Shown here: positions 1 through 10,967 of the stretch, piece after piece
How the letters are laid out: each line of letters opens with the position of its first letter
Position numbering within the stretch: the first letter of the stretch is position 1
DNA from: Lachnoclostridium sp. An76
GTDB lineage: Bacteria; Bacillota; Clostridia; Lachnospirales; Lachnospiraceae
NCBI RefSeq assembly: GCF_002161355.1
Contig: NZ_NFHL01000001.1
Coordinates: 310,001 to 374,000, forward strand
Direction of reading: 5' to 3'
DNA length: 64,000 bases
Notes under the pieces: model-generated
What the model was told of the DNA's origin: nothing
Database searches by the model: none
What the model saw: the letters and a program-made list of their open reading frames with translations, nothing else
Translations under genes and position numbers: made by a program

Positions 1-1325
1 TCCGGAGAAAAACAAACGTCGGAGAGAGAAGTCCCTTCATCAGTCAGCTCCATATTCTCTGTCTGTGCCAGAATACTGCCAGTGGAAGAAGAATAGAAAC
101 TGATCTTTTCATCTTCTTCCACTTCCCCGTCTGCTTTATACTGTTCATACACAGCTATCATTTCCCCGTCTGCCGAGACTGCTTTTTCAGCGGAGGAAAT
201 CTGTTCATAGTCAATACGCTGCTTCTCTGCTCCCGTCTTTGTATCAAGAAGAACCATTTCCGAAAAGCTGTCACAAAAAACCTTGCTGCCGTTTTCAGGA
301 AGAAAGAGCACTCCCTGTTTTCCTTCCACATCCTCCAGCATATGCTCCCATAAGCAGCCGCCGTTTTTTCCATTGTATCCTCTCACGAATCCGAATTCAT
401 CAACAGTGACAGCCAGACTGCCGTCTGAAGACACGACCATATCGGTAATCGGTGTATCCTGATGGATCATGCAGTCCACGCGCATTGCGCTGTCACAGTA
501 TGCATAGAGGGCATTGCTCAGGGCATACTCAGCCCCAGCAGACGGCGGACGACTATCATCTTTCCCCTGCGGCAGTGCTGCCAGTGCGCTTTCCACCGCA
601 GAATATCGATCCCCGTCCGCAAGGTACTGCTCACTTAGCAGAGCAAGCGCATAGGACTCATTTTCCTGTGAACGCCGGTACTGTTCCTCTATGTCCGCAT
701 TCTTTTTCACAAGCATTCCTGCAAATGCAGCAGCGATCACTGCGGTTCCGCCCAGCACAACTGATATTCTCTGCTGACGGTATCTTCTCTCGCGCTGCCA
801 CAGAGCATCATATGGACATCTCAGTATTGCTGCTGCAAGACGGATAAATTCATTTTGTAATTTTCGCAGGACAGCCGCCGCATTATCCCCTGAAATATTT
901 GCCGCAAGCGGCTCCACCTCCCGCACTGATCCATCATCCGGATTGCGCTGGTGTGTCAGCAGATCTGGAAAAGACTCTTCCGGCGTCCCATCCGCAAGTA
1001 CGGCAAGAATATGGCTTCCGTCATGATGCTCCCGGAAATACTCGATCTCTCTTCTTACCCACATGGACTTTGGCGTCTCCGGTGTACAGATTACGATCAA
1101 AAAATCAGATCTGTCCAGGGCGGTATAAATATCGGAATTAAGATCACTGGAAATAGGCAGTTCATCCTCATCACGGAACACTTTTCCAAGCCTCTTCTCT
1201 CCATTTTTCCGTAACCGCACCGGTACGCGGTAATGTTCCAGCAGCCGATGCAGTCTTTTCGCAACCGCAGCGTCAAGTTTCTTATGCCTGTAGCTGATAA
1301 ATGCAATATAACGGTCCTCTGTCAT
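1..1325 (-). CDS. TIR-domain membrane protein with C-terminal repeat region (partial, 3' end outside window)
   Basis: The frame is open from an ATG at 1325 to the left edge (about 441 residues visible). Residues 4-130 form a TIR domain: YIAFISYRH near the start, then VFRDEDELP, and SMWVRRE at 87-93, whose Glu93 aligns with the catalytic glutamate of NAD-cleaving TIR domains. A hydrophobic segment follows at about 185-203 (VVLGGTAVIAAAFAGMLV). Next comes a helical stretch with a YALALLSEQYLADGD motif like a repeat helix, then residues resembling beta-propeller blades (VSSDGSLAVTV). The gene starts 22 bases after the stop of a larger paralogue with the same layout and is the last visible gene of the operon. 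It could be an NADase effector or a scaffold; the sequence does not decide. The C-terminus is not visible. Confidence 0.85.
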   Translation of the reverse strand, partial: MTEDRYIAFISYRHKKLDAAVAKRLHRLLEHYRVPVRLRKNGEKRLGKVFRDEDELPISSDLNSDIYTALDRSDFLIVICTPETPKSMWVRREIEYFREHHDGSHILAVLADGTPEESFPDLLTHQRNPDDGSVREVEPLAANISGDNAAAVLRKLQNEFIRLAAAILRCPYDALWQRERRYRQQRISVVLGGTAVIAAAFAGMLVKKNADIEEQYRRSQENESYALALLSEQYLADGDRYSAVESALAALPQGKDDSRPPSAGAEYALSNALYAYCDSAMRVDCMIHQDTPITDMVVSSDGSLAVTVDEFGFVRGYNGKNGGCLWEHMLEDVEGKQGVLFLPENGSKVFCDSFSEMVLLDTKTGAEKQRIDYEQISSAEKAVSADGEMIAVYEQYKADGEVEEDEKISFYSSSTGSILAQTENMELTDEGTSLSDVCFSP

Positions 1326-1347
1326 GATCCTTTCTCTCTCCTGTCAT

Positions 1348-4300
1348 TCAGCCATCCGTTCTCACAGTCATTTTCCCGGAAAATCCTGTGTCTGCCGGCA
1401 GATTGAGCCTGATTACCACTCCGTCCCGCATGACTTCGATCCATCTGTCCTGCTCCTGATCCAACAGTCTGGAAAAATGGTTTTCTCCTGCGATCCGTTT
1501 TCCCCTCACTCCAATGATCAGGTCTTTGACCTGAAGTCCGGCTGCCTGTGCCTCTGTTGTCACCGCAGTAACTTCAATCCCGCAGTCCGCAGAAATATTC
1601 TCAAGGAATTCATTCAATACAGTTTCATCAATCTGCTCCCGCCAGGAAAGCGCGCCCGCAGAAGTCATCCAGCCAGTAACTGTGCTTTCGATCACATTCT
1701 CCTGCGCGCCAATCTCTATTAATTCTGCAATTGTTTCATCTGCCTTTGCAGCCGCATTTTCCGCATCTCCAGAAAGCAGAGACTGAGTGATCTCTGCCCA
1801 GGCGGTCACTGTACTCATATAGGGAAATTGTCCCGCTAAAAGAAGATCATCCATATACTCCGAGGTTCCGCTCTCGAAAAGATCCGCCGTAACAAGCATC
1901 TCCAACGCCGAACAGTATTCCATCAGTTCATCCGAAGCCTCCAGATTATAGGGATCATCAACGATCCTTTCAACCACACTGAAATCCACATCATCCAGAG
2001 AGGCAGAACCCAGACTTCGGTACGCCTTTACAAGTGCTTCATCCGCCAGTAAAGTCTGGTCAAAAGTATCAAGGAAATTTGTATTCAGCTCAGTATAGAT
2101 AGGCTCCCCCTCTTCTGCTTCCAGCAGGCATTGCTCTAAAAGGGTGATATATGCCTCCAGGCAGGGCATCAGCCTCTCTTCCATCGCTCCCATCGCTGCA
2201 ATCCGGCAGTCTCTGTAAAAGTAATCCATCTCGATTACAGTAAAATCCTGCGTACCGTCCAGCATTTCCTGCCAGAGGCTGTCACACCTTGAAAACCATT
2301 CTTCTGTGCCATAATCCTCTGCTTCATGAAGTTCCGCAGCTCGCTCTGTAAATGTACCGCTTTCGGCGCCTGCTTCCTGATCATCATCTGGATCCTGCTC
2401 TTCCTGGATTTCCCGTACTGTCCATCCGGCAAAGTTCTCATCCCAGCTTCCCATAGTAAATCCGGAAGGTCCCGGATCTTTGCAGATGATCACGTTTTCT
2501 CTCTCCAGGTCTAAACAGCACAGTTCTCTGAGGAACTGCATCGCTGTTTCATCTGCCGCTGGCATCCGGATCTGCCGTGAGGCCTGTATATCCCCGCAGC
2601 TCCACAGAAGCGCTCCGTTCTCATCAAATGCTAACGTATCAATAACATCCTGTTCTTCAAAAGAAGCTGTCAGGATCCCATTCTCCAGATCATAAAGCTC
2701 TATGCTCCCCTTTTCTGAAAATGCGCCCTGTCCTGCTTCCTCCAAGATCGTGGTGACAGCCACAGCGAGATATGTCCCTTCTCTATCCGAACAGATCAGT
2801 TCTGTTTTCCCCGTATGTTCGGGGAGGATCTCCCAAACCGGAACGTCTGTACCGTCATAAACAAGCAAGTTTCCTTCCCCTGTCCCGATTACCGTAAGCC
2901 CCGGCTCAAACCAAAAGGATGCCGCCGGAATCCCGCGGATATCAAGCTCCTCCGGCATTCCAAGCGTTCCTTCGCCCGTATCCACAGCCGCACAGACAAG
3001 GAAGGGCTGATAACGGTTATACACATATACCTGTTTTTGCTGAGGAGACCATACCATTTCTCCTGCCACCGGGTCAGCGATCTCAACGGTATCTGCTGTC
3101 TCTCCGTCCTCGTCCAGAAGACAGAGGCTGCCATACTCAAGCACCAGAGACATTCCGTTCTCCATAATGACAGGACTGCTCACATTTCCTTCTGTTCCCA
3201 TATTGTCCTGACGCGCAGAGCCGTTTCCTGTATACGCAGAGTCCAGAGACGCGTACTGATATTCAGACACAGTTCCCGCTCCGTTATCTATGAGAATTCT
3301 TTCCCCTTCGGAAAACGCCGCAGACGCGACAGAAGAGACACATATCGGAGCAGCTTCCTGCTTCCCGTTCTCCCAGTTCCAATACCGGACATTCTCCCTG
3401 TCCCACACGATGACCCGAGAGCTGTCCTCAGGATGGAATACGGCTCCCCGAATTGCTTCTCCAGAACGTTCCTTCGAAGCAAACACACAGTTTCCTTCCA
3501 TATCATAAACCTGAAAATAGCTCCCCGGATTTCTGTAATCCAAAGCATACATATTACTGTAAGCCAACAGAAAAAACCGATTATCCAGGCTTACCGCAGC
3601 ATCAGACAATCCATAAAAAAGCTGCCGGACAGATGCCCGCAGAGTAAGATCTTCTGTTTCATAAACTGCCGCGTGTGCGCCCGTACTCGCTATTAGTACA
3701 GAGCCATCTTCAGAAAGCCATATCCTGGTTGAAAGAGAAATAGATCCTTTCCCCGCATCTTCCGGAAAGACATCTGCCAGATCCGCCCTGGCTGTCTCCA
3801 GTGCTTCTCCCTCCTCTGTGAGTTCATAGATATGTATAAGACCTCCATATGCCACAGCTGCCCGATTTCCCGCATACATGACAGCTGATACGTCATAAAT
3901 CTCAAGGTCATATTCATCCGGTTCACATCCCCGGCTATATTCTGAAGGCTTTTCCGTCCGATAAGATTTTCCGGACGCAGAATCATAAAAGGTAAGAGTA
4001 TCCCCCGACAAAAATGTCTGAAAAACGCCGCCATGCTCAGACAGTAATGTCCCACGGCCGGGATCAGGATCTTCCCGGGAAATTATCTGGTCTTCCCGGA
4101 GTGTTCCATCTACTTCCCCTGACTTTACCGGCCAAAGATACTCCTGCAGAAGGAGCGCCGCCCCGGCAGACGCGGAATCTGCTCCCGGATCTGCCGACAG
4201 CGCTTCCGTATAGTAGAGCAGCGCATGCTGGATATCACCTTCCAGCGCATATTCACCGGCCTCACGGATATATTCCCCGGCGAGCATCTCCCGGTAATTC

Positions 4301-5016
4301 CCCTCTGACACCCACGTCCTATATGCAAAGACAGATACGATCATAAGAACTGACAGGATAATCGCCGCGCTTCCTCCCGCCGCTGCCATTATCCTGCGCC
4401 GCCGCCTTTTCTGATGCCGCTGATAGAGTCCGTCAAAACTGCAGCCGAGAAGAGGCGCGGCAATCCTTAAAAATTCCATACGGAGCTTTTTCAGGCTCTC
4501 CTTCCTGCTTTTTGCCCGCACATCTGCACTCAGAGGCTCTATCCTCACCCATTCTTCCTGCGTAAGGGTCTCGGCGGACACTTCTGTCCGCTTCCGCTCC
4601 CAGAGCAGTTCCACCGGAAATACTTCTGAAGGTTCCCCCGAGACAAGCAGCGGGAGAATATGATCCGTGTGCCCGTGGTGAGCCTCTTTGAACATACGGA
4701 TCTCCTCCATACACCACAGAGAATTTTTCGTCTCTTCCGAACAGACTACGATCAGGTAGCGGGAATCCAGAAGCGCCTGCCGTATGTCACTTCCCAGATC
4801 TCCGCTTGTCGGCAGTTCACTCTGATCCCGGAACACTCTTTTTATCCTGTTTCTCTTCAGGCCGGTCAGGTTCTTCGGCGGACGGTATGTCTCCAGAAGT
4901 GACTGCAGTTTTACCGCCACTGCCATATCAAGGGGCAGATGGCGGTAAGATATAAATGCATCGTATCTGTATTCTCTTTCTGTCCTCTCATCCATACTGT
5001 CTACCTCATCTTTCAT
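1348..5016 (-). CDS. TIR-transmembrane-beta-propeller-like protein with C-terminal PDZ-like domain
   Basis: This is a 1222-residue protein. Residues 16-140 are a TIR domain (YDAFISYRH, VFRDQSELP); SLWCMEE at 99-105 closely matches the S-x-W-C-x-x-E signature of NAD-cleaving TIR domains. A very basic stretch (KRRRRR) precedes one transmembrane helix at about 207-234. A short TPR-like segment (EYALEGDIQHALLYYTEAL) and a long region of propeller-like beta repeats follow. An acidic helical part leads to a PDZ-like end at about 1150-1210 (AAGLQVKDLIIGVRGKRIAG). The ATG at 5016 overlaps the RyR gene stop as ATGA. An ATG at 4995 has better Shine-Dalgarno spacing (GAGGT, 8 bases) and may be the true start, giving 1215 residues. 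By layout the TIR is cytosolic and the rest may be outside the membrane; that topology is inferred. Confidence 0.85.
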   Translation of the reverse strand: MKDEVDSMDERTEREYRYDAFISYRHLPLDMAVAVKLQSLLETYRPPKNLTGLKRNRIKRVFRDQSELPTSGDLGSDIRQALLDSRYLIVVCSEETKNSLWCMEEIRMFKEAHHGHTDHILPLLVSGEPSEVFPVELLWERKRTEVSAETLTQEEWVRIEPLSADVRAKSRKESLKKLRMEFLRIAAPLLGCSFDGLYQRHQKRRRRRIMAAAGGSAAIILSVLMIVSVFAYRTWVSEGNYREMLAGEYIREAGEYALEGDIQHALLYYTEALSADPGADSASAGAALLLQEYLWPVKSGEVDGTLREDQIISREDPDPGRGTLLSEHGGVFQTFLSGDTLTFYDSASGKSYRTEKPSEYSRGCEPDEYDLEIYDVSAVMYAGNRAAVAYGGLIHIYELTEEGEALETARADLADVFPEDAGKGSISLSTRIWLSEDGSVLIASTGAHAAVYETEDLTLRASVRQLFYGLSDAAVSLDNRFFLLAYSNMYALDYRNPGSYFQVYDMEGNCVFASKERSGEAIRGAVFHPEDSSRVIVWDRENVRYWNWENGKQEAAPICVSSVASAAFSEGERILIDNGAGTVSEYQYASLDSAYTGNGSARQDNMGTEGNVSSPVIMENGMSLVLEYGSLCLLDEDGETADTVEIADPVAGEMVWSPQQKQVYVYNRYQPFLVCAAVDTGEGTLGMPEELDIRGIPAASFWFEPGLTVIGTGEGNLLVYDGTDVPVWEILPEHTGKTELICSDREGTYLAVAVTTILEEAGQGAFSEKGSIELYDLENGILTASFEEQDVIDTLAFDENGALLWSCGDIQASRQIRMPAADETAMQFLRELCCLDLERENVIICKDPGPSGFTMGSWDENFAGWTVREIQEEQDPDDDQEAGAESGTFTERAAELHEAEDYGTEEWFSRCDSLWQEMLDGTQDFTVIEMDYFYRDCRIAAMGAMEERLMPCLEAYITLLEQCLLEAEEGEPIYTELNTNFLDTFDQTLLADEALVKAYRSLGSASLDDVDFSVVERIVDDPYNLEASDELMEYCSALEMLVTADLFESGTSEYMDDLLLAGQFPYMSTVTAWAEITQSLLSGDAENAAAKADETIAELIEIGAQENVIESTVTGWMTSAGALSWREQIDETVLNEFLENISADCGIEVTAVTTEAQAAGLQVKDLIIGVRGKRIAGENHFSRLLDQEQDRWIEVMRDGVVIRLNLPADTGFSGKMTVRTDG

Positions 5017-5322: not shown

Positions 5323-5856
5323 TCACTGTACCGGACTGCCGCATGAACTGCAGAACCGCGCTCCGGCGGAAAGCTTTGCTCCGCATGAAGTACAGAATGT
5401 TCCCGGTTCCGCTGATCCGCCTTGCGGATTCTGAGAAATATCCGCAGCAGATACCTTCTCCTTTTCTTCTCTGCGGATCTCCTCTTCCAACATCCCGATC
5501 ACCTTCTCATCAAGTTTTGACTGTTCCACCATCCCGCCAATCTGCGTCAGTATTACCGGCCACGCCACAAAGAGTGTGATCATAGTAGGTATCACCTGCT
5601 GTCCGAACATTCCGACCTTCGCTGACACGCTGACGCCTCCGTGCATCTGAGTCAGCTCTACGTTCAGCGCAGTCTTCATTCCAAGTACCGATTTGAAGAT
5701 CCCGCCCTTTGTTACACTAAAATAATCCCCCACAGCGCCGCTCTCTTTGGTAAACGTGTATCCTTCTCCGGCAAGTCTGGTTCCCACATTCTCTATGATT
5801 TCAGAAAAATCCGTAAGCTCTGTGGAAATAAATTTTGTTGTATTAAAAGTGCCCAT
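5323..5856 (-). CDS. Zinc-ribbon protein of unknown function
   Basis: This is a 177-residue protein. The last 25 residues form a double-CxxC zinc ribbon (FCTSCGAKL then RFCSSCGSP). The N-terminal 110 residues look like an alpha/beta domain beginning MGTFNTTKFISTEL, with a hydrophobic stretch at about 86-106 (IPTMITLFVAWPVILTQIGGM) that could lie in or near a membrane. A charged helix with EEEIRREEKEK connects the two parts. GGAGG lies eight bases before the ATG at 5856, and the preceding small gene stops only three bases upstream, so the two are co-translated. I do not recognise the N-terminal family. The zinc ribbon resembles the one on the M48 peptidase encoded two genes upstream, suggesting a shared interaction mode. 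Confidence 0.75.
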   Translation of the reverse strand: MGTFNTTKFISTELTDFSEIIENVGTRLAGEGYTFTKESGAVGDYFSVTKGGIFKSVLGMKTALNVELTQMHGGVSVSAKVGMFGQQVIPTMITLFVAWPVILTQIGGMVEQSKLDEKVIGMLEEEIRREEKEKVSAADISQNPQGGSAEPGTFCTSCGAKLSAGARFCSSCGSPVQ

Positions 5857-5859
5857 CCT

Positions 5860-6117
5860 TCATCCCTCCTGCTCTTCTCTGAATGCATTCATCTCGTACA
5901 GTACCGCCAGTTCACACAGCGCGTCCGTCATCAGTTTTTCCTCTTCATCGGACAGGCGCTCCTCAAGTTCTTTTAAAAGTGCGAGTACCAGTTCCGCCTG
6001 TTCCTTCATCTCCGTGTCTGTCACCTTCCCATCTTCCATGGCTTTTTTGAAAGTCGGTCTCTCCTGTACGATCTCGTCAAGTTTCAGATATCCTGTCTGC
6101 CCGTCAAATAATCTCAT
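5860..6117 (-). CDS. Small 85-residue helical protein
   Basis: The protein begins MRLFDGQTGYLKLDE and is otherwise rich in Glu, Lys and Leu, predicted mostly helical. It has no signal peptide, transmembrane segment or cysteine motif. A longer reading from 6201 is possible, but the ATG at 6117 is preferred because it overlaps the stop of the upstream M48 gene as ATGA, the coupling used elsewhere in this operon. I do not recognise the family. Its size, lack of obvious catalytic residues and position between a peptidase and a zinc-ribbon protein would suit a small accessory or regulatory subunit; that is inference. Confidence 0.65.
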   Translation of the reverse strand: MRLFDGQTGYLKLDEIVQERPTFKKAMEDGKVTDTEMKEQAELVLALLKELEERLSDEEEKLMTDALCELAVLYEMNAFREEQEG

Positions 6118-7034
6118 GATTGCTCCTTTCCCCGCAGTCTGTGTCCGCAGTATCTGCAGAATTCCCATTCTTCCATTGTTTCCCGCCCGCATCCGGGGCA
6201 CAGCCCTTTCCGGGTTACCAGCCTGGATCCGCGCTCATACTTGTAATCCATGATGCTTTTAAATAAGTCTGATCCGCACCATTCTCTGACTTCCAGGGCA
6301 CGGACAGACAGAAACGGATGGCTCTGGCTCATCAGCGCATAATACTGAAGCATCTTGTTCCACCCGGAATCGTTCATAAAATCCCGATATTCCTCTGCCT
6401 GCTCCATATACAGATCCATATCGATCCTTTTCGCCAGTTCCGCGCTTCCCGACGCCAGAAGCGCCATCACTTCAGCCACTGTCTCATAACCGTCCATACA
6501 GATAGCGGCAGCCCGGTCACAGCTCAGCTCACTGCACCTCTGCCAGTGAAAAAAGGCAAGCTGAAGACCTGCTGTGAGCAGATTTCCTCCCAGTACCGCA
6601 CTGCCTGCTCCAAGCACTACATCTGCCATCGTATGATAGAGCACATGTCTGCAGGCAATATGCCCGCACTCATGGGCAATCACTGCAGTCAGCTGTTTCT
6701 CATCCATCAGTTCGATCAGACCTGATGTGACCGTGATGGAAATGATGCTGTCCCCCATCGTATAGGCATTTGCTACCGGATTGAGTTCCAGGTAGAACTC
6801 CGGCTCAGCAATCCCCAGTGTCTCGCACAGCGGCGGTAAGAGACGGTAAAGTTCCGGAAGCTGCCTGTCCGTGATCCGGACCTTATTTGACATATTCATA
6901 CCCTGGATCATATTCTCGCTGAACGCCTTCATAAATGCCTTCAGCACTGCTGAAAATCCCGGGATCTGCTGCAGTTCCCGCAGGGCTTTACGATCCTGCG
7001 GATGATAATAGTCTTTTGGATTAACCACTCTCAT
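6114..7034 (-). CDS. M48-family zinc metallopeptidase with C-terminal zinc ribbon
   Basis: This is a 306-residue protein. HECGH at 121-125 is the HExxH zinc-binding motif of gluzincin peptidases, and Glu169 in SELSCDR is the likely third ligand, as in M48 (Ste24/HtpX-like) enzymes. Unlike HtpX it has no N-terminal transmembrane helices, so it is probably cytosolic or peripherally membrane-bound; a weakly hydrophobic stretch lies near 136-162. The C-terminus is a CxxC-CxxC zinc ribbon (LCPGCGRE and FCRYCGHR). The ATG at 7034 is chosen over a GTG at 7040 because AGGAGG sits seven bases upstream of it. The gene overlaps the preceding membrane-protein gene by 14 bases. In this TIR/RyR context it may process or activate a partner; no substrate can be read from sequence. 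Confidence 0.88.
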   Translation of the reverse strand: MRVVNPKDYYHPQDRKALRELQQIPGFSAVLKAFMKAFSENMIQGMNMSNKVRITDRQLPELYRLLPPLCETLGIAEPEFYLELNPVANAYTMGDSIISITVTSGLIELMDEKQLTAVIAHECGHIACRHVLYHTMADVVLGAGSAVLGGNLLTAGLQLAFFHWQRCSELSCDRAAAICMDGYETVAEVMALLASGSAELAKRIDMDLYMEQAEEYRDFMNDSGWNKMLQYYALMSQSHPFLSVRALEVREWCGSDLFKSIMDYKYERGSRLVTRKGLCPGCGRETMEEWEFCRYCGHRLRGKEQS

Positions 7035-8943
7035 TCTCACGCCTCCTTCTTTTTAATGCGTAACCGGCTTCCCCTGCGATCTTCTCCAGCGAACAGACAA
7101 AAATCCGGTCCAGATATTGGTAATCAATTCCGTAAAAACCGCTTACTTCCGGCAGCTTCTCCCAGGGGACCAGACATGCGTGACGCCTTGTTATTATGTC
7201 TTTATTCTTTCCCGCCGGCAGTTCTTCCGGTCTTGCACTCTTCCATCCTTCAGTGACCAGATATGCCTGCCATCTTCTATGCTCGCCAATAGATAGATTC
7301 TCCATCAGCCTTTTATCAGCCGCTGCCACTTTCTCATAACTTCCGTCCGGTCTTCCCGGTATCAGGTCGAATCCTGCACATCTCGCCTTCCACCGGATAT
7401 TCAAAGCCAGTGCCCTGCTTGACATTTTTTCATAAACTCCTGCCTGACTCCACAGGATATGTACATCTCCGTCTACGCCGTAAAATCTCTGATAGTACAT
7501 ATGAACTGATCTGGCGATAGCATCCAACTTTTCCCCGATCAGGACATCATAACTGCAGACCTGTTCACGGCAGCCGAATACCACCACCCCGGAGCGCTCA
7601 AGCACACACCGATCCACCCCTGCGCTCTCTGCTTTTACAAACATTGTAAGGCTTTTACCGTTTCTTTCGAGAAATTCAGCAGTCTTAAGCGCAGATCCCA
7701 CATTTTCATCCATATATTTTCCAATGAAAAAGACAGCGTGAGGACATTCCTTTTCATCCAGAAGATAATGATAATAATCCTCTGAGCCCGGCTCTATACC
7801 GGTCAGGTCCATCTCCGCGGCAAGGGAAAGCATAGGATTTGCCCGAAAAAAGAAGGCAGTCTCTTTCCGCATTTCTTCTGCTGTTCCCAAAAACTGGATC
7901 CGCAGGCGGAGACCGGCAGCCTGGACACCGCAGATCAAATACCTGCACAGCACCTCGTTTGCTGCGGAGTATCCTGCGATAGCAAGACGAAGTTCGCTGT
8001 CAATCCTGCCTTCTGCACATCTCTCATCAGGAAAAATCTTCAGGAAATCCGGTGACAGCAGAAGCCCCCTTGCCGCCAGCTCCTCCGGCTGCGTCCAGTG
8101 GACATCTGATTTTCTGTATACCTCGTCCTCTGATATCTTCCCGCTCTTTTCGTTTTCGTAAAAGGCATAGAGATGAAGCCGATCCGTTTTTTCAGCTTCT
8201 TCGCAGAGACGCCGGACCAATAACTCATTTTTCCATCGTTCCTGCTTCATGCAGAGTACATGTGTCTCCCCTTTACATTTTTGTGCCGCCCGTATGAGGA
8301 AGCGCAGGCTTCTCTCCGGATTAAATACGATTTTGAACGCTCCCGACTGGAAGGCTTCATTCTCCAGATCCCGGCGTTCTTTTTCTTCCCGATATTCCTC
8401 ATCCCTTATACTTAAAAGAAACAGCGTGCCGCTGGGATCTTTTCTATGGATATCCGACACCAGTTCCACAGTATCCCGGTTAAGTCCGTAGAAAAAATAG
8501 AGATTTTTCCGCGTTCCGACTGCCTTTATGAATATCAGCCGGATCCTGCCGAGGATTCCCCCGCCGATGTTTGCCAGTACCATCGCTGCCAACATGACCA
8601 TCGCTGCGAACATCACAATACCATAGATCATGCGGTACAGTTCATTCATGTAAAGAGATCCTGTCTCTCCGATGTCAAGCTCCATCACCATGATCCTGCC
8701 TGAACTGAATAATGCAAGAAATGCACTTCCAATAGCATGGAGCAGACTGCTCCCGCCAGATATATTCCCAAAGAAATATCCTGTGAAGTAAACCGTAAAT
8801 CCCATGACAAGGAGTCCCATGAACAGGGTAAGTCCATATTTACGGAACCAGAGATTATGTCTGGAAATAAAATAGAGCACCCCCGCCAGGATGAAAAACC
8901 CCATAAGCCAGATGATCAGAAAAATCAGGATATTCATCGGCAT
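7021..8943 (-). CDS. Membrane protein with RCK/TrkA-like Rossmann regions and C-terminal RyR domain
   Basis: This is a 640-residue protein, first gene of the seven-gene operon. The N-terminal 140 residues hold three or four hydrophobic helices (ILIFLIIWLMGFFILAGVLYF; LFMGLLVMGFTVYFTGYFF; a helix near 62-78; IYGIVMFAAMVMLAAMVLA) with a spacing reminiscent of a small ion channel. Two Rossmann-like segments follow: NLYFFYGLNRDTVELV near 150 and LAIAGYSAANEVL near 330, like TrkA-N/RCK units. The last 70 residues resemble a RyR domain (SIGEHRRWQAYLVTEGW, then HACLVPWEKLP). A start at 8991 is possible, but the ATG at 8943 has AGGAGG ten bases upstream. A ligand-gated channel or membrane sensor is plausible; no selectivity filter is recognisable, so transport is unproven. 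Confidence 0.8.
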   Translation of the reverse strand: MPMNILIFLIIWLMGFFILAGVLYFISRHNLWFRKYGLTLFMGLLVMGFTVYFTGYFFGNISGGSSLLHAIGSAFLALFSSGRIMVMELDIGETGSLYMNELYRMIYGIVMFAAMVMLAAMVLANIGGGILGRIRLIFIKAVGTRKNLYFFYGLNRDTVELVSDIHRKDPSGTLFLLSIRDEEYREEKERRDLENEAFQSGAFKIVFNPERSLRFLIRAAQKCKGETHVLCMKQERWKNELLVRRLCEEAEKTDRLHLYAFYENEKSGKISEDEVYRKSDVHWTQPEELAARGLLLSPDFLKIFPDERCAEGRIDSELRLAIAGYSAANEVLCRYLICGVQAAGLRLRIQFLGTAEEMRKETAFFFRANPMLSLAAEMDLTGIEPGSEDYYHYLLDEKECPHAVFFIGKYMDENVGSALKTAEFLERNGKSLTMFVKAESAGVDRCVLERSGVVVFGCREQVCSYDVLIGEKLDAIARSVHMYYQRFYGVDGDVHILWSQAGVYEKMSSRALALNIRWKARCAGFDLIPGRPDGSYEKVAAADKRLMENLSIGEHRRWQAYLVTEGWKSARPEELPAGKNKDIITRRHACLVPWEKLPEVSGFYGIDYQYLDRIFVCSLEKIAGEAGYALKRRRRENESG

Positions 8944-9097
8944 ACCGTTTCTCCCTCCTTCTGTCACTCTCTGATTTTGTTCATTTTTCACATATTTTCT
9001 TTTTCAGTTTATCTTAATTATGTATCTTTGTATACAGCATCTCTGCATTTCCTATAAAATTTAGGAATCTGCAAAAAAAATACCGGGGATCGATTTC

Positions 9098-9585
9098 TCA
9101 TCTCCGTCTCCGAAACACCACCACTCCGCACACCATCAGCACGATCCCCGCACCCAGGATCCAGTATTTTGTCTCGTAGTCCGTCAGCATACCGAAGGGG
9201 TAAAGCTTTTTCATATATCTGTACCCCGCGCTTATGCCTGCCACATAGTATCCAAGCGGGATCATGTATCCCACGATGAGATTGTCGCTGACTGCGTAGG
9301 CAAAGCCCCCAGGCCTCCAAAGGCGATGACCTCTGCCATTGTCCCGAAATAATATTTCACCGGCTCCATCTCGCAGTCTCCCGCTCTCATCACCAACAGG
9401 AATATCAGGGTGAGGAGAGCCGAGAAAAGAAGGCTGAGCAGGATCCCCACCAGCGCCACATAAGTCTCCAGCACCTTTGCGCTCTGCGATGCATCCAGAT
9501 TGGAGATGCCAAGCACAAGGGGAGACACCGCGAGCAGCAGGGCGCTGAGCAGGAGATGCTGCCATGCATTATGCCTGAACTGCAC
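9098..9585 (-). pseudogene. Frameshifted ABC-2-type permease remnant
   Basis: Two overlapping frames make one broken membrane protein. The first frame (from a GTG at 9585) reads a start like ABC-2 permease subunits (MQFRHNAWQHLLL, with hydrophobic helices) and runs to FGGLGALP. The reading then must shift into the frame ending at 9098 (GGFAYAVSDNLIVGYMIPLG to VFRRRR). The shift coincides with a run of five C at 9306-9310; one more base there would restore the frame. The coding length, about 160 residues, is short for a permease and the middle appears missing, so decay by deletion is likely as well. No good start codon with a ribosome site is visible; a CTG at 9600 sits where an ATG would fit after AGGA. 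A sequencing error at the homopolymer is possible for the shift alone. Confidence 0.7.
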
Positions 9586-9630
9586 GTTTGTGATTTCCAG
9601 ATATAAATCCTATTTTCCTTCTACAAAGAT

Positions 9631-10683
9631 TTAAGACTTTCCGCAGAAAAATGAAACACTCACAAAAGCCCCTCCGTCCATGCCGTTGGCCACATTCAGG
9701 ACGCCTCCGTGCCTTTCGGCGATCACACGGCAGATATGCAGCCCGATGCCGAAATGCCCGCTTTTATATCCGTTTCCGTATCCGCTGCCTTGTCCTCCGC
9801 CGTCTGCCGCCGCTTCCCGGCTCCCGCGGAAATACGGTTCCGTGACTGACTTTCTTTTTCATCGAACCCCGGCCCGTCGTCATGTACATACAGGAAAAGC
9901 ATTTCTGTCTCTCTCTTATGATCCAGTGTGATCTCCACTCTGCTTTTCGCATAGCGCAGTGCATTGGAAAGCAGATTTTCCAGCACTTCCAGGAACAGCG
10001 ATCCATCCAGCCATAACGAGTCTTCTGCCGTATCTTTCTGATCCCCGTGCATGTCTTTTCCTTCCCCGCACAGGATCTGGATATCCCCGCAGCACCGTCA
10101 GAGGGGTGCGCATATCATGGGCAAACGCGGCATTGATCTCTTTCTGATCCTCGATCCTCCGCCACAACTCTTCCCGGTCCGCGACCACTTCTCTGCGCAT
10201 CCGTTCAAAGGTCCGGCACAGCTCTCCCATCTCGTCCCTGCTGTCATAGGAAATCTCAAAATCCAGATTCTTTCTCCCCATCTCCGCCGCGCCGTTTTTC
10301 AGGATCTCGCACGGACGCCTGAGCCGCATCCTGTAAAAGAGGACAGCCGCACAGACTGCCCCGCAGCCGGTAAGGATCCACGGCGCTGCATTTGACAGGA
10401 GCTGCAAAAGCCGGATCTCCACGCGCTCTCCATCAGAAAGCAGGTACATCGCCGCCTCTGTCCCGGAATAATAGATATTCCCGGCGATCCTCTCCCTGTA
10501 TACATCCACTCCGTAAGGGTACAGGATCTCATTGCACCGGCTGATGCAGAGCTGCTGTATGAGCCAGGAGCAGACAAACGCAGCAAAAAAGGCCAGCAGC
10601 AAATATGCTGCCAGCGCCCATTTTACAGAAAGATCCTGTATCCGATGCCTGATCTGTCCTATCTTTTCGTCGATCCAATCCAC
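9631..10683 (-). pseudogene. Broken sensor histidine kinase
   Basis: The pieces lie in three frames but in correct order. From a GTG near 10683 the first frame encodes a transmembrane helix (WALAAYLLLAFFAAFVCSWL), an extracellular loop, a second helix, a HAMP-like linker and the phospho-acceptor box AAFAHDMRTPLTVLRGY. After about 10100 the frame shifts; the second frame carries the N box (LENLLSNALRYA) and the G1 box (HDDGPGFDE). Near 9851-9859, in A/T runs, it shifts again; the third frame carries GHFGIGLHICRVIAERHGG and ends at TAA 9631-9633. The second dimerisation helix also seems missing at the first break. A functional kinase is unlikely. It follows a deleted response regulator and precedes a broken permease, so the whole sensing/transport locus is degenerating. 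Confidence 0.8.
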
Positions 10684-10967
10684 TGATACCCCACTCCCCA
10701 TACCGTGCGGATCACTTCCTGATCCGTATATTCTGCGATCTTATTCCTGATCCGGCGGACATGCTCTGCCACGATCGAACTGTCGCCGGATGCGTCATAT
10801 CCCCGGACGTTTTCATAGATCCTCATATCCGGACCGCACCGGATCCTGTCAAGCGCCTCCATCCCGCCTCCGGCTGTGATCACCTCATATCCCTGGAGCT
10901 CAAAATAATCCTTCAAAAGAAGTACGATCCCTTCCTCATCATCCGCGACCAGAATCCTCTGTCCCAT
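10659..10967 (-). pseudogene. OmpR-type response regulator with large internal deletion
   Basis: The frame is intact but encodes only 102 residues, where OmpR-family regulators have about 220-240. Residues 1-47 are the start of a receiver domain (RILVADDEEGIVLLLKDYF, with the acidic pocket DDEE). After GPD the text jumps directly to the end of a winged-helix DNA-binding domain (RIYENVRGYDASGDSSIV to GVGYQWIG). The phospho-acceptor aspartate, the rest of the receiver and the first half of the winged helix are gone, roughly 110-130 residues. AGAAGGGA lies before the ATG at 10967. It overlaps the kinase remnant by 25 bases, the normal arrangement for such pairs. It probably cannot be phosphorylated; residual DNA binding is doubtful. 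Confidence 0.75.

Follow-up and report, generated by a model that had tools for sequence, protein, structure and literature searches.

A predicted transmembrane TIR protein encoded in one operon with ryanodine receptor-type domains in Lachnoclostridium sp. An76

What can a bacterial TIR protein be doing when most of its length is predicted to lie outside the membrane? The question arose from a 64,000-nucleotide stretch of the 3.43-Mb genome of Lachnoclostridium sp. An76 (contig NZ_NFHL01000001.1, positions 310,001 to 374,000; hereafter the window), in which an initial annotation had described a protein, here called TIR1, with the order TIR domain, basic stretch, one transmembrane helix, TPR-like part, propeller-like repeats, and PDZ-like end. 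The limits it gave to the reading frame, 1348-5016, are exact, and the strand, which it left unstated, is minus; the plus-strand frame over the same interval contains many stops (open reading frame check). What it missed is the setting: genes for ryanodine receptor-type (RyR) domains, a membrane protein combining RyR and RCK domains, a second TIR gene, and the fact that the operon is accessory. These neighboring genes carry most of the meaning of TIR1. We found a run of seven closely packed minus-strand genes with small gaps or overlaps, encoding in order the RyR/RCK membrane protein (TMRyR), an M48 peptidase, a 113-amino acid protein, a zinc-ribbon protein, a stand-alone RyR domain (RyR88), TIR1, and TIR2. 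Our reading, which we consider probable, is that an outside signal activates TIR1, whose ADP-ribose-type product is read by TMRyR and buffered or destroyed by RyR88.

The TIR domain of TIR1 passed the Pfam cut-offs of both TIR_2 (39.5 bits, cut-off 28) and ThsB_TIR (26.7 bits, cut-off 21.2), and a TIR profile found plant TIRs, the best being 3jrn (E value 1.1e-8) and ROQ1 (E value 2.2e-7). The motif SLWCMEE begins at residue 99 and holds W101 and, four residues later, E105, whose codon occupies positions 4702-4704 of the window on the minus strand. Both residues are invariant in all 35 aligned relatives, giving the Trp-x-x-x-Glu pattern of enzymatic-class TIRs, and the pattern is matched by 113 of the 121 proteins of the wider family described below; the eight misses include kinase-led proteins, proteins with Tyr or Met for the Trp and the acid kept, and faults of the pattern itself. 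The proposal that SLWCMEE is an NADase-type signature thus stood up at the level of sequence, where Glu105 appears to be of the catalytic type, and its constancy in 35 of 35 relatives makes a dead TIR scaffold unlikely. The frame is not a chance one, as it is kept in three congeners (96, 86, and 86% identity, one copy being split across two contigs) and, near full length and at 31-51% identity in the best segment, in six more loci (L141-L143, L145-L147; genomes and loci are cited by our G and L identifiers).

RyR88 is a clear member of the R12 family: it scored 87.4 bits against PF02026 (cut-off 27.4) with the ligand residues kept, and it matched all four RyR repeats of RyR2 (5go9; E value 7.4e-46, summed over the four). 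The closest functional precedent is RyDEP, gp78 of phage DyoEdafos (MN234187.1), which is reported to bind and cleave the TIR-made cyclic ADP-ribose (cADPR) signals 2'/3'cADPR, H75 and D117 forming its catalytic pair while W78 and H100 touch the ligand (PMC13232231). RyR88 aligned without gaps to RyDEP residues 72-117 (46 residues, 37% identity, E value 8e-11, BLASTP), pairing H25 with H75, W28 with W78, H50 with H100, and D67 with D117. Across 31 RyR segments the H, W, H, and D were kept in 30, 30, 26, and 21, and in the sequence alignment TMRyR keeps the same four residues. RyR88-like stretches were also seen in 189 of 50,697 phage records (E value up to 1e-3), among them Salmonella, Pseudomonas, Arthrobacter, and Aeromonas phages, and among the matches listed (60 of 189) the proteins were mostly annotated as hypothetical.

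The pairing of TIR and RyR recurs well beyond the window. In a sample of 200 genomes of the family, 27 carried an RyR domain and 20 of these also a TIR_2 domain; a TIR lay within 1.2 kb of the RyR in nine (G000, which is the window's genome, G028, G058, G087, G088, G098, G154, G176, and G178) and within 4 kb in eleven, adding G013 and G035. TIR_2 was present and not near the RyR in nine others (10 kb away in G021; also G004, G012, G049, G092, G111, G155, G160, and G165), and no TIR_2 was found in the remaining seven (G010, G050, G057, G130, G151, G175, and G192). A sample of 398 genomes of the phylum gave 10 with RyR, one of them the window's own; with that one excluded, TIR_2 was within 4 kb in six of nine (G501, G353, G548, G632, G564, and G380), not nearby in G398, and absent from G467 and G587. 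A rough model in which genes are placed uniformly and each genome has about 1.3 RyR loci predicts about 0.15 and about 0.05 such genomes, respectively; the observed 11 of 27 and 6 of 9 lead us to reject chance neighbors. The partner of the RyR domain is not always a propeller protein: in L133 a TIR-AAA/STAND-like-TPR protein, with AAA and STAND models just below their cut-offs, stands beside an RyR gene that itself scores 26.5 of 27.4, and in L132 a TIR-LRR protein adjoins a RelA/SpoT-RyR protein. What stays constant is the TIR-RyR pairing more than the sensor. The RelA/SpoT protein of this last locus (L132:7391-11532), whose RyR domain is C-terminal, meets the TIR-LRR gene, which may connect alarmone synthesis with TIR signaling.

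TMRyR is the candidate output. Its AlphaFold2 model (mean predicted local distance difference test score [pLDDT] 79.8) comprised four low-confidence transmembrane helices, two Rossmann domains, and the RyR end, and the cytosolic part matched MtDMI1 with the fold of an RCK gating ring (Z score 17.9, 334 residues, 5.5 Å; VIA-align), followed by CASTOR, TrkH-TrkA, KtrA, GsuK, and Slo1. In a 14-row alignment of TMRyR homologs, E570, H571, R573, and W574 of the RyR motif made up four of the seven invariant columns, and a profile of the 14 found RyR chains (best E value 1.6e-23), the likeness being limited to the R12 domain. In L073 a gene ending 2 nucleotides before the TIR gene bears Ion_trans_2 (E value 2.7e-13) together with RyR, and the counterpart in Heliobacterium mobile DSM 6151 (L188) combines TrkA_N with RyR. 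With the modeled RCK fold, these two cases suggest that TMRyR may have channel character. The 20-kb Heliobacterium locus also has matches to the M48, 113-amino acid, zinc-ribbon, and RyR88 proteins and holds four TIR-family frames.

On this basis, TIR1 would be a single-pass receptor with its TPR-propeller-helical-PDZ ectodomain turned outward and its TIR domain in the cytosol, as charge and helix count indicate. A signal outside the membrane would bring the TIR domains together, and Glu105 would then convert NAD+ to a messenger of the ADP-ribose type, most likely, in view of the conserved Glu and the partner genes, a cADPR isomer. The messenger would be read by the RyR domains of the same operon: in TMRyR, the putative effector, it would open or close a pore and so change the ion balance, while RyR88, in which the His/Asp pair of RyDEP is kept, may buffer or hydrolyze it and thereby set the threshold or end the signal. 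A more specific version, which we regard as possible and put forward tentatively, has the TIR receptor make a cADPR isomer that gates an RyR-bearing RCK cation channel, with RyR88 as the hydrolase that switches it off; the set would then be the prokaryotic counterpart, and possibly the source, of the animal cADPR-RyR link, and propeller, STAND-TPR, and LRR sensors would all plug into one TIR-RyR pair.

TIR1 might instead be a plain NADase, acting through NAD+ loss and growth arrest, with the RyR proteins serving not as effectors but as guards that sense ADP-ribose or NAD or prevent accidental firing. Many bacterial TIR defenses do act by NAD depletion, and the invariant TIR Glu agrees with such a role, as does the description of RyDEP itself as an antagonist with homologs that sponge the signal (PMC13232231). 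However, a guard in the form of a membrane protein that joins an RyR domain to an RCK gating ring would be odd, L073 pairs its TIR with an RyR-bearing ion channel, and RyR genes adjoin three different TIR architectures, so that we find the idea doubtful.

A second alternative is about the trigger and can be combined with the signaling mechanism: the ectodomain might detect a damaged wall or a misfolded exported protein, and the messenger might tune ion balance and repair, making the operon an envelope-stress sensor and not a phage defense. An AlphaFold2 model of the ectodomain, built from 12 aligned ectodomains, had a mean pLDDT of 84.9 and a predicted template modeling score of 0.57. In the single sequence its parts are weak (TPR_2 E value 0.12; PDZ_6 E value 0.16; PDZ 12.2 of 27 bits; no propeller model at its Pfam cut-off), and they become clear once relatives are added: TPR_2 reached 17.4 bits in L141 (cut-off 27, E value 0.0048), a profile of 35 family members matched the WD40 protein 2ymu (E value 2.1e-59, summed over seven stretches), and a profile of eight tails matched DegQ (4a8a; E value 4e-13) and also DegP and RseP-type PDZs. 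In the model, the all-beta region forms a first propeller at about residues 288-589, similar to the Gbeta chain 7e2x_B (Z score 18.9, 260 residues, 3.9 Å) and to Tup1 (Z score 18.6; both VIA-align), and a remainder resembling a second, possibly partial, propeller; when the ectodomain was compared as a whole, the match fell mostly on the first of the two. Profiles and model therefore agree on propeller and PDZ folds, the absence of which the initial annotation had named as grounds to doubt it, and every part of the order it proposed held up. A 963-amino acid protein of another genus (G028) matched the TIR domain at 1e-65 and the propeller and tail queries not at all at E 1e-3 (phmmer); by sequence, the ectodomain evolves much faster than the TIR domain. 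In the scanned set the PDZ tail is rare, nine TIR proteins matching it strongly and one more weakly (E value 7e-4).

The kinship of this tail with DegQ, DegP, and RseP-type PDZs and the M48 peptidase in the operon are what an envelope-stress role would lead one to expect, but the two are uncoupled across loci: the PDZ-tailed L143, L145, L146, and L147 lack a match to the operon's M48, and in L067 an M48 gene adjoins TIR genes without a PDZ tail. The suggestion that the PDZ end may contact the product of the peptidase accordingly fails as a general link. The distribution of the operon also fits a conflict system better than a housekeeping one. Among 58 genomes of the genus, ten matched the TIR1 query, four of them (the window's own included) with the protein at 86% identity or more and the other six in the TIR part. 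G253 has the same gene order, as do G250, across two contigs, and G251, from the M48 gene at its contig start onward; G028 also keeps it, with a short second TIR frame (268 amino acids). G234, where flank identity reaches 97.6%, and G235 keep both flanks; in each, the stretch from about -1591 to 9095 (window) is missing, and about 1 kb of unmatched sequence stands in its place; G214 lacks the same stretch and more, up to 11,125 (window). No TIR1 match was found in these three genomes. The operon, being absent en bloc in this manner, is present or absent as a single cassette of about 10.7 kb. With an accessory cassette missing from a close congener, we think an envelope-stress trigger unlikely.

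A third possibility is that the RyR domains are energy sensors with adenine nucleotides (ATP or NAD, for instance) as their ligands, and that their adjacency to TIR reflects shared gene islands only. Animal R12 domains do bind adenine ligands (PMC13232231), and no TIR_2 lies within 4 kb in 16 of the 27 RyR-bearing genomes of the family sample. The wider TIR-transmembrane-propeller family, comprising 121 proteins and, with duplicates removed, 112 loci, bears on this. Within 4 kb of the TIR gene we found an RyR gene in 20 loci, a gene for a DHH-family phosphoesterase in 47, and neither in 45, although 20 of the latter have less than 4 kb on a side. The count for RyR is low, the RyR model having missed at least L147, where a gene overlapping the TIR stop resembles the L084 RyR protein (E value 2e-32), and L069, whose neighbor is 52% identical to the L129 RyR protein. 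Of the 20 RyR genes, 11 are upstream on the same strand within 120 nucleotides (three overlapping the TIR gene), one is downstream within 200 nucleotides, seven are farther away, and one is on the opposite strand. This tight spacing, the recurrence of the linkage in other families of the phylum, and the retention of RyDEP's four residues all speak against shared islands, and we consider the energy-sensor reading quite improbable.

The DHH partner is a protein of about 505 amino acids (PF01368, E value 1.5e-14 in L070). Of its 47 genes, 30 are upstream on the same strand within 120 nucleotides, 16 of which abut or overlap the TIR gene, with 7 downstream within 200 nucleotides, 4 farther away, and 6 on the opposite strand. 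These loci include L070, L071, L076, L078, L085, L086, and L089 and 40 more. A quick TIR tree without bootstrap was built from 113 of the 121 rows, the others being shorter than 400 amino acids or without a findable TIR start, and labeled with 24 RyR rows, L147 and L069 being entered as having neither partner despite their RyR-type neighbors. The labels were clustered, DHH requiring 16 changes against 36.5 in shuffles and RyR 16 against 22.0. TIR1 sits in a set of 22 rows, 11 with RyR and 11 with neither partner; a single origin of the RyR pairing is rejected, the starred branches of this tree forcing at least nine label changes, and in L200, within a DHH-rich branch, a transmembrane-RyR gene overlaps the TIR start. 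We infer that DHH and RyR are two nucleotide-handling partners exchanging in one slot. A literature search on TIR domains, DHH phosphoesterases, and defense returned one paper, a survey of jumbo phages. Other associations were seen in the same family. In L090:5172-8831 the TIR comes after a protein kinase domain, and L093:8687-13000 has kinase and propeller matches and matches the family model, with no Pfam TIR at 0.001. L125:13900-17913, L127, and L194 encode proteins of 1182-1344 amino acids with an RyR-like match about 2 kb downstream of TIR-transmembrane-propeller genes, the one in L125 also having a protein kinase domain. Directly upstream of genus paralogs (L125:8071-8664 and L128:8900-9448) stands a protein of 180-200 amino acids without a Pfam match over the cut-off, whose likeness to the end of the DHH partners is weak, showing in one of nine (best-domain E value 0.005).

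The receptor-like topology was judged from charge and helix count. TIR1 has a sole transmembrane helix, at residues 209-227 (mean hydropathy 2.34), with seven Lys or Arg in the 15 residues before it and two in the 15 after; Lys and Arg make up 18% of the TIR part and 6% of what lies past the helix. A helix between residues 170 and 330 was found in 28 of the 35 aligned relatives, with more Lys and Arg before it in 27 and a tie in one, and of the other seven, four have a helix further along and three (L073, L075, and L086) none at the threshold used. In the wider family, 112 of the 121 proteins have one helix between residues 150 and 620, eight have none, and one has two. By the positive-inside rule this supports a cytosolic TIR domain with the remainder outside, as the initial annotation had predicted; both ends in the cytosol, the arrangement it had set against this, was not borne out, as judged by charge and helix count alone. 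Bacterial WD40 propellers can be cytosolic, a predicted helix is no topology measurement, and three of the 35 lack one, but the charge bias in 27 of 28 relatives, the single helix in 112 of 121 proteins, and the fall in Lys and Arg from 18% to 6% make it very improbable that propeller and PDZ are cytosolic and TIR1 is not a membrane-spanning receptor.

Several observations weigh against the messenger reading. A plain NADase, or one making other ADP-ribose products, fits the TIR sequence of TIR1 equally well. Six of eight tested RyDEP homologs made stable complexes with the signals, and those tested apart from RyDEP are reported not to degrade them (PMC13232231), so that cleavage by RyR88 is not to be assumed; the catalytic-type D67 is moreover kept in only 21 of the 31 RyR segments. 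TMRyR alone stays below the Pfam cut-off for RyR (14.5 of 27.4), finds no match among the pore families of Pfam, and has its transmembrane part modeled with low confidence. Since 16 of the 27 RyR-bearing genomes lack a nearby TIR_2 and seven lack TIR_2 altogether, RyR must have other uses or ligands as well. In the wider family, 45 of 112 loci have neither partner, 8 of the 20 RyR loci are loosely coupled (same-strand gaps of 162-3118 nucleotides or opposite strands), and the PDZ-tailed L145 has no RyR within the 8 kb available on each side. The three relatives without a helix at our threshold count here too, the M48, 113-amino acid, and zinc-ribbon proteins have no role in the favored model, and no PADLOC model for Thoeris matched the six operon proteins compared (TIR2 not included) at E 0.1.

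The coordinates of the operon and of the parts of its proteins are collected in Table 1. TIR2, directly downstream of TIR1, is of full length (1042-1044 amino acids) in congeners and broken by a deletion in this assembly. A TerB-like label considered for the 113-amino acid protein was dropped, being unsupported by any family match. A promoter scan upstream of TMRyR gave three sites, none on the minus strand, and no classic defense island was seen beside the operon on inspection by eye. At 9018-10822 of the window, the adjoining ABC and two-component-like genes look broken, two joints showing sharp deletions relative to G234, G235, and G253, which reflects either real decay or an assembly fault. 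Elsewhere in the same genome (G000:C21, L006:2032-9249), a separate TIR gene of 190 amino acids is clustered with genes for proteins of 955, 426, 492, and 314 amino acids.

Table 1. Features of the TIR-RyR operon in window coordinates
Feature	Position	Strand	Basis
TIR1, TIR-transmembrane-TPR-propeller-helical-PDZ protein, 1222 amino acids	1348..5016	minus	open frame, ATG start
TIR domain, residues ~1-200	4417..5016	minus	TIR_2 match; E105 conservation; plant TIR profile matches
Basic stretch, residues 199-208	4393..4422	minus	7 Lys/Arg among 15 residues preceding the transmembrane helix
Single transmembrane helix, residues ~209-231	4324..4392	minus	hydropathy scan 209-227; upper bound from sequence
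TPR-like helices, residues 238-292	4141..4305	minus	AlphaFold2 model helices 3-57; TPR_2 in relative L141
WD40-type all-beta region, residues 294-815	2572..4137	minus	AlphaFold2 model, fold comparison, profile to 2ymu
Alpha-helical region, residues 889-1140	1597..2352	minus	AlphaFold2 model helices 654-905
PDZ domain, residues 1144-1219	1360..1587	minus	tail profile to DegQ/DegP/RseP-type PDZs; AlphaFold2 model
RyR88, stand-alone RyR (R12) domain, 88 amino acids	5013..5279	minus	PF02026 87.4 bits; 4-nucleotide overlap with TIR1 start
177-amino acid protein, C-terminal zinc ribbon	5323..5856	minus	Zn_Ribbon_1 36.5 bits, cut-off 25; conserved in operon
113-amino acid protein (start perhaps further in)	5860..6201	minus	no family at cut-off; conserved in operon
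M48 peptidase with zinc-ribbon-like C-terminal end	6114..7040	minus	Peptidase_M48 64.1 bits, cut-off 20.3
TMRyR, 656 amino acids: four predicted transmembrane helices, two Rossmann/RCK domains, C-terminal RyR	7021..8991	minus	AlphaFold2 model, MtDMI1 fold match
RyR domain of TMRyR, residues ~560-650	7042..7314	minus	residue conservation, homolog profile
TIR2, second TIR-transmembrane-propeller gene	1..1325, leaving the window, to L004:13868	minus	directly downstream of TIR1

Among known systems, the operon would work most like a Thoeris-type messenger system: a TIR enzyme with an NAD-derived messenger as its predicted product is encoded beside the messenger's predicted receptor, and TIR1 passes the ThsB_TIR cut-off. 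Unlike in Thoeris, whose effectors are known to include SLOG and macro types, TIR1 is a predicted membrane receptor with an outward ectodomain and an RyR/RCK membrane protein takes the effector's place. We do not file it as Thoeris because the PADLOC models do not recognize the operon proteins, the only PADLOC matches for the same six being weak TIR matches to PDC-S66 and RT-TIR; in NCBIfam, 3 of 10 related TIR domains matched Thoeris type III ThcB4 (best E value 7.1e-5), and the window's TIR matched no model at 0.001. The phage RyR sponges, RyDEP included, share the R12 family and the four ligand and catalytic residues, but they are phage-borne Thoeris inhibitors, whereas here RyR stands in a TIR operon and also within a membrane protein; the paper describing them (PMC13232231) was the only one we found tying RyR domains to TIR signals. 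Literature searches of titles and abstract beginnings, with some result lists covered in part, returned no bacterial TIR-RyR operon, nor did one partly covered search for TIR-transmembrane-propeller proteins. TMRyR shares the double-RCK gating ring of DMI1/CASTOR, GsuK, Slo1, and MthK and differs in its extra C-terminal RyR domain and in a pore without a Pfam family. Toll-like receptors likewise join an outside sensor through one transmembrane helix to a cytosolic TIR, an arrangement predicted for TIR1, but their LRR ectodomain precedes helix and TIR, whereas in TIR1 the TPR/WD40/helical/PDZ ectodomain follows an N-terminal TIR, WD40 and PDZ stand in place of LRR, the enzyme-type Glu is invariant, and the partners are predicted to bind nucleotides.

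The likeness to animal ryanodine receptors lies in the match of RyR88 to all four RyR2 repeats and in the tie of an RyR domain to an ion-channel-like protein; in contrast to the animal receptors, TMRyR has an RCK gating ring and its match is confined to the R12 domain. The cassette thus suggests a bacterial version of the animal route from NAD signal to channel. It offers a host-side counterpart to the phage RyR inhibitors, and three purified proteins would suffice to test what bacterial RyR domains do, Heliobacterium mobile DSM 6151 being a good experimental source of the TIR-RyR set. If our reading is true, TIR signaling would gain an outside sensor and an output through an ion channel, and the effect of cADPR on animal ryanodine receptors, which is debated, would acquire an evolutionary setting.

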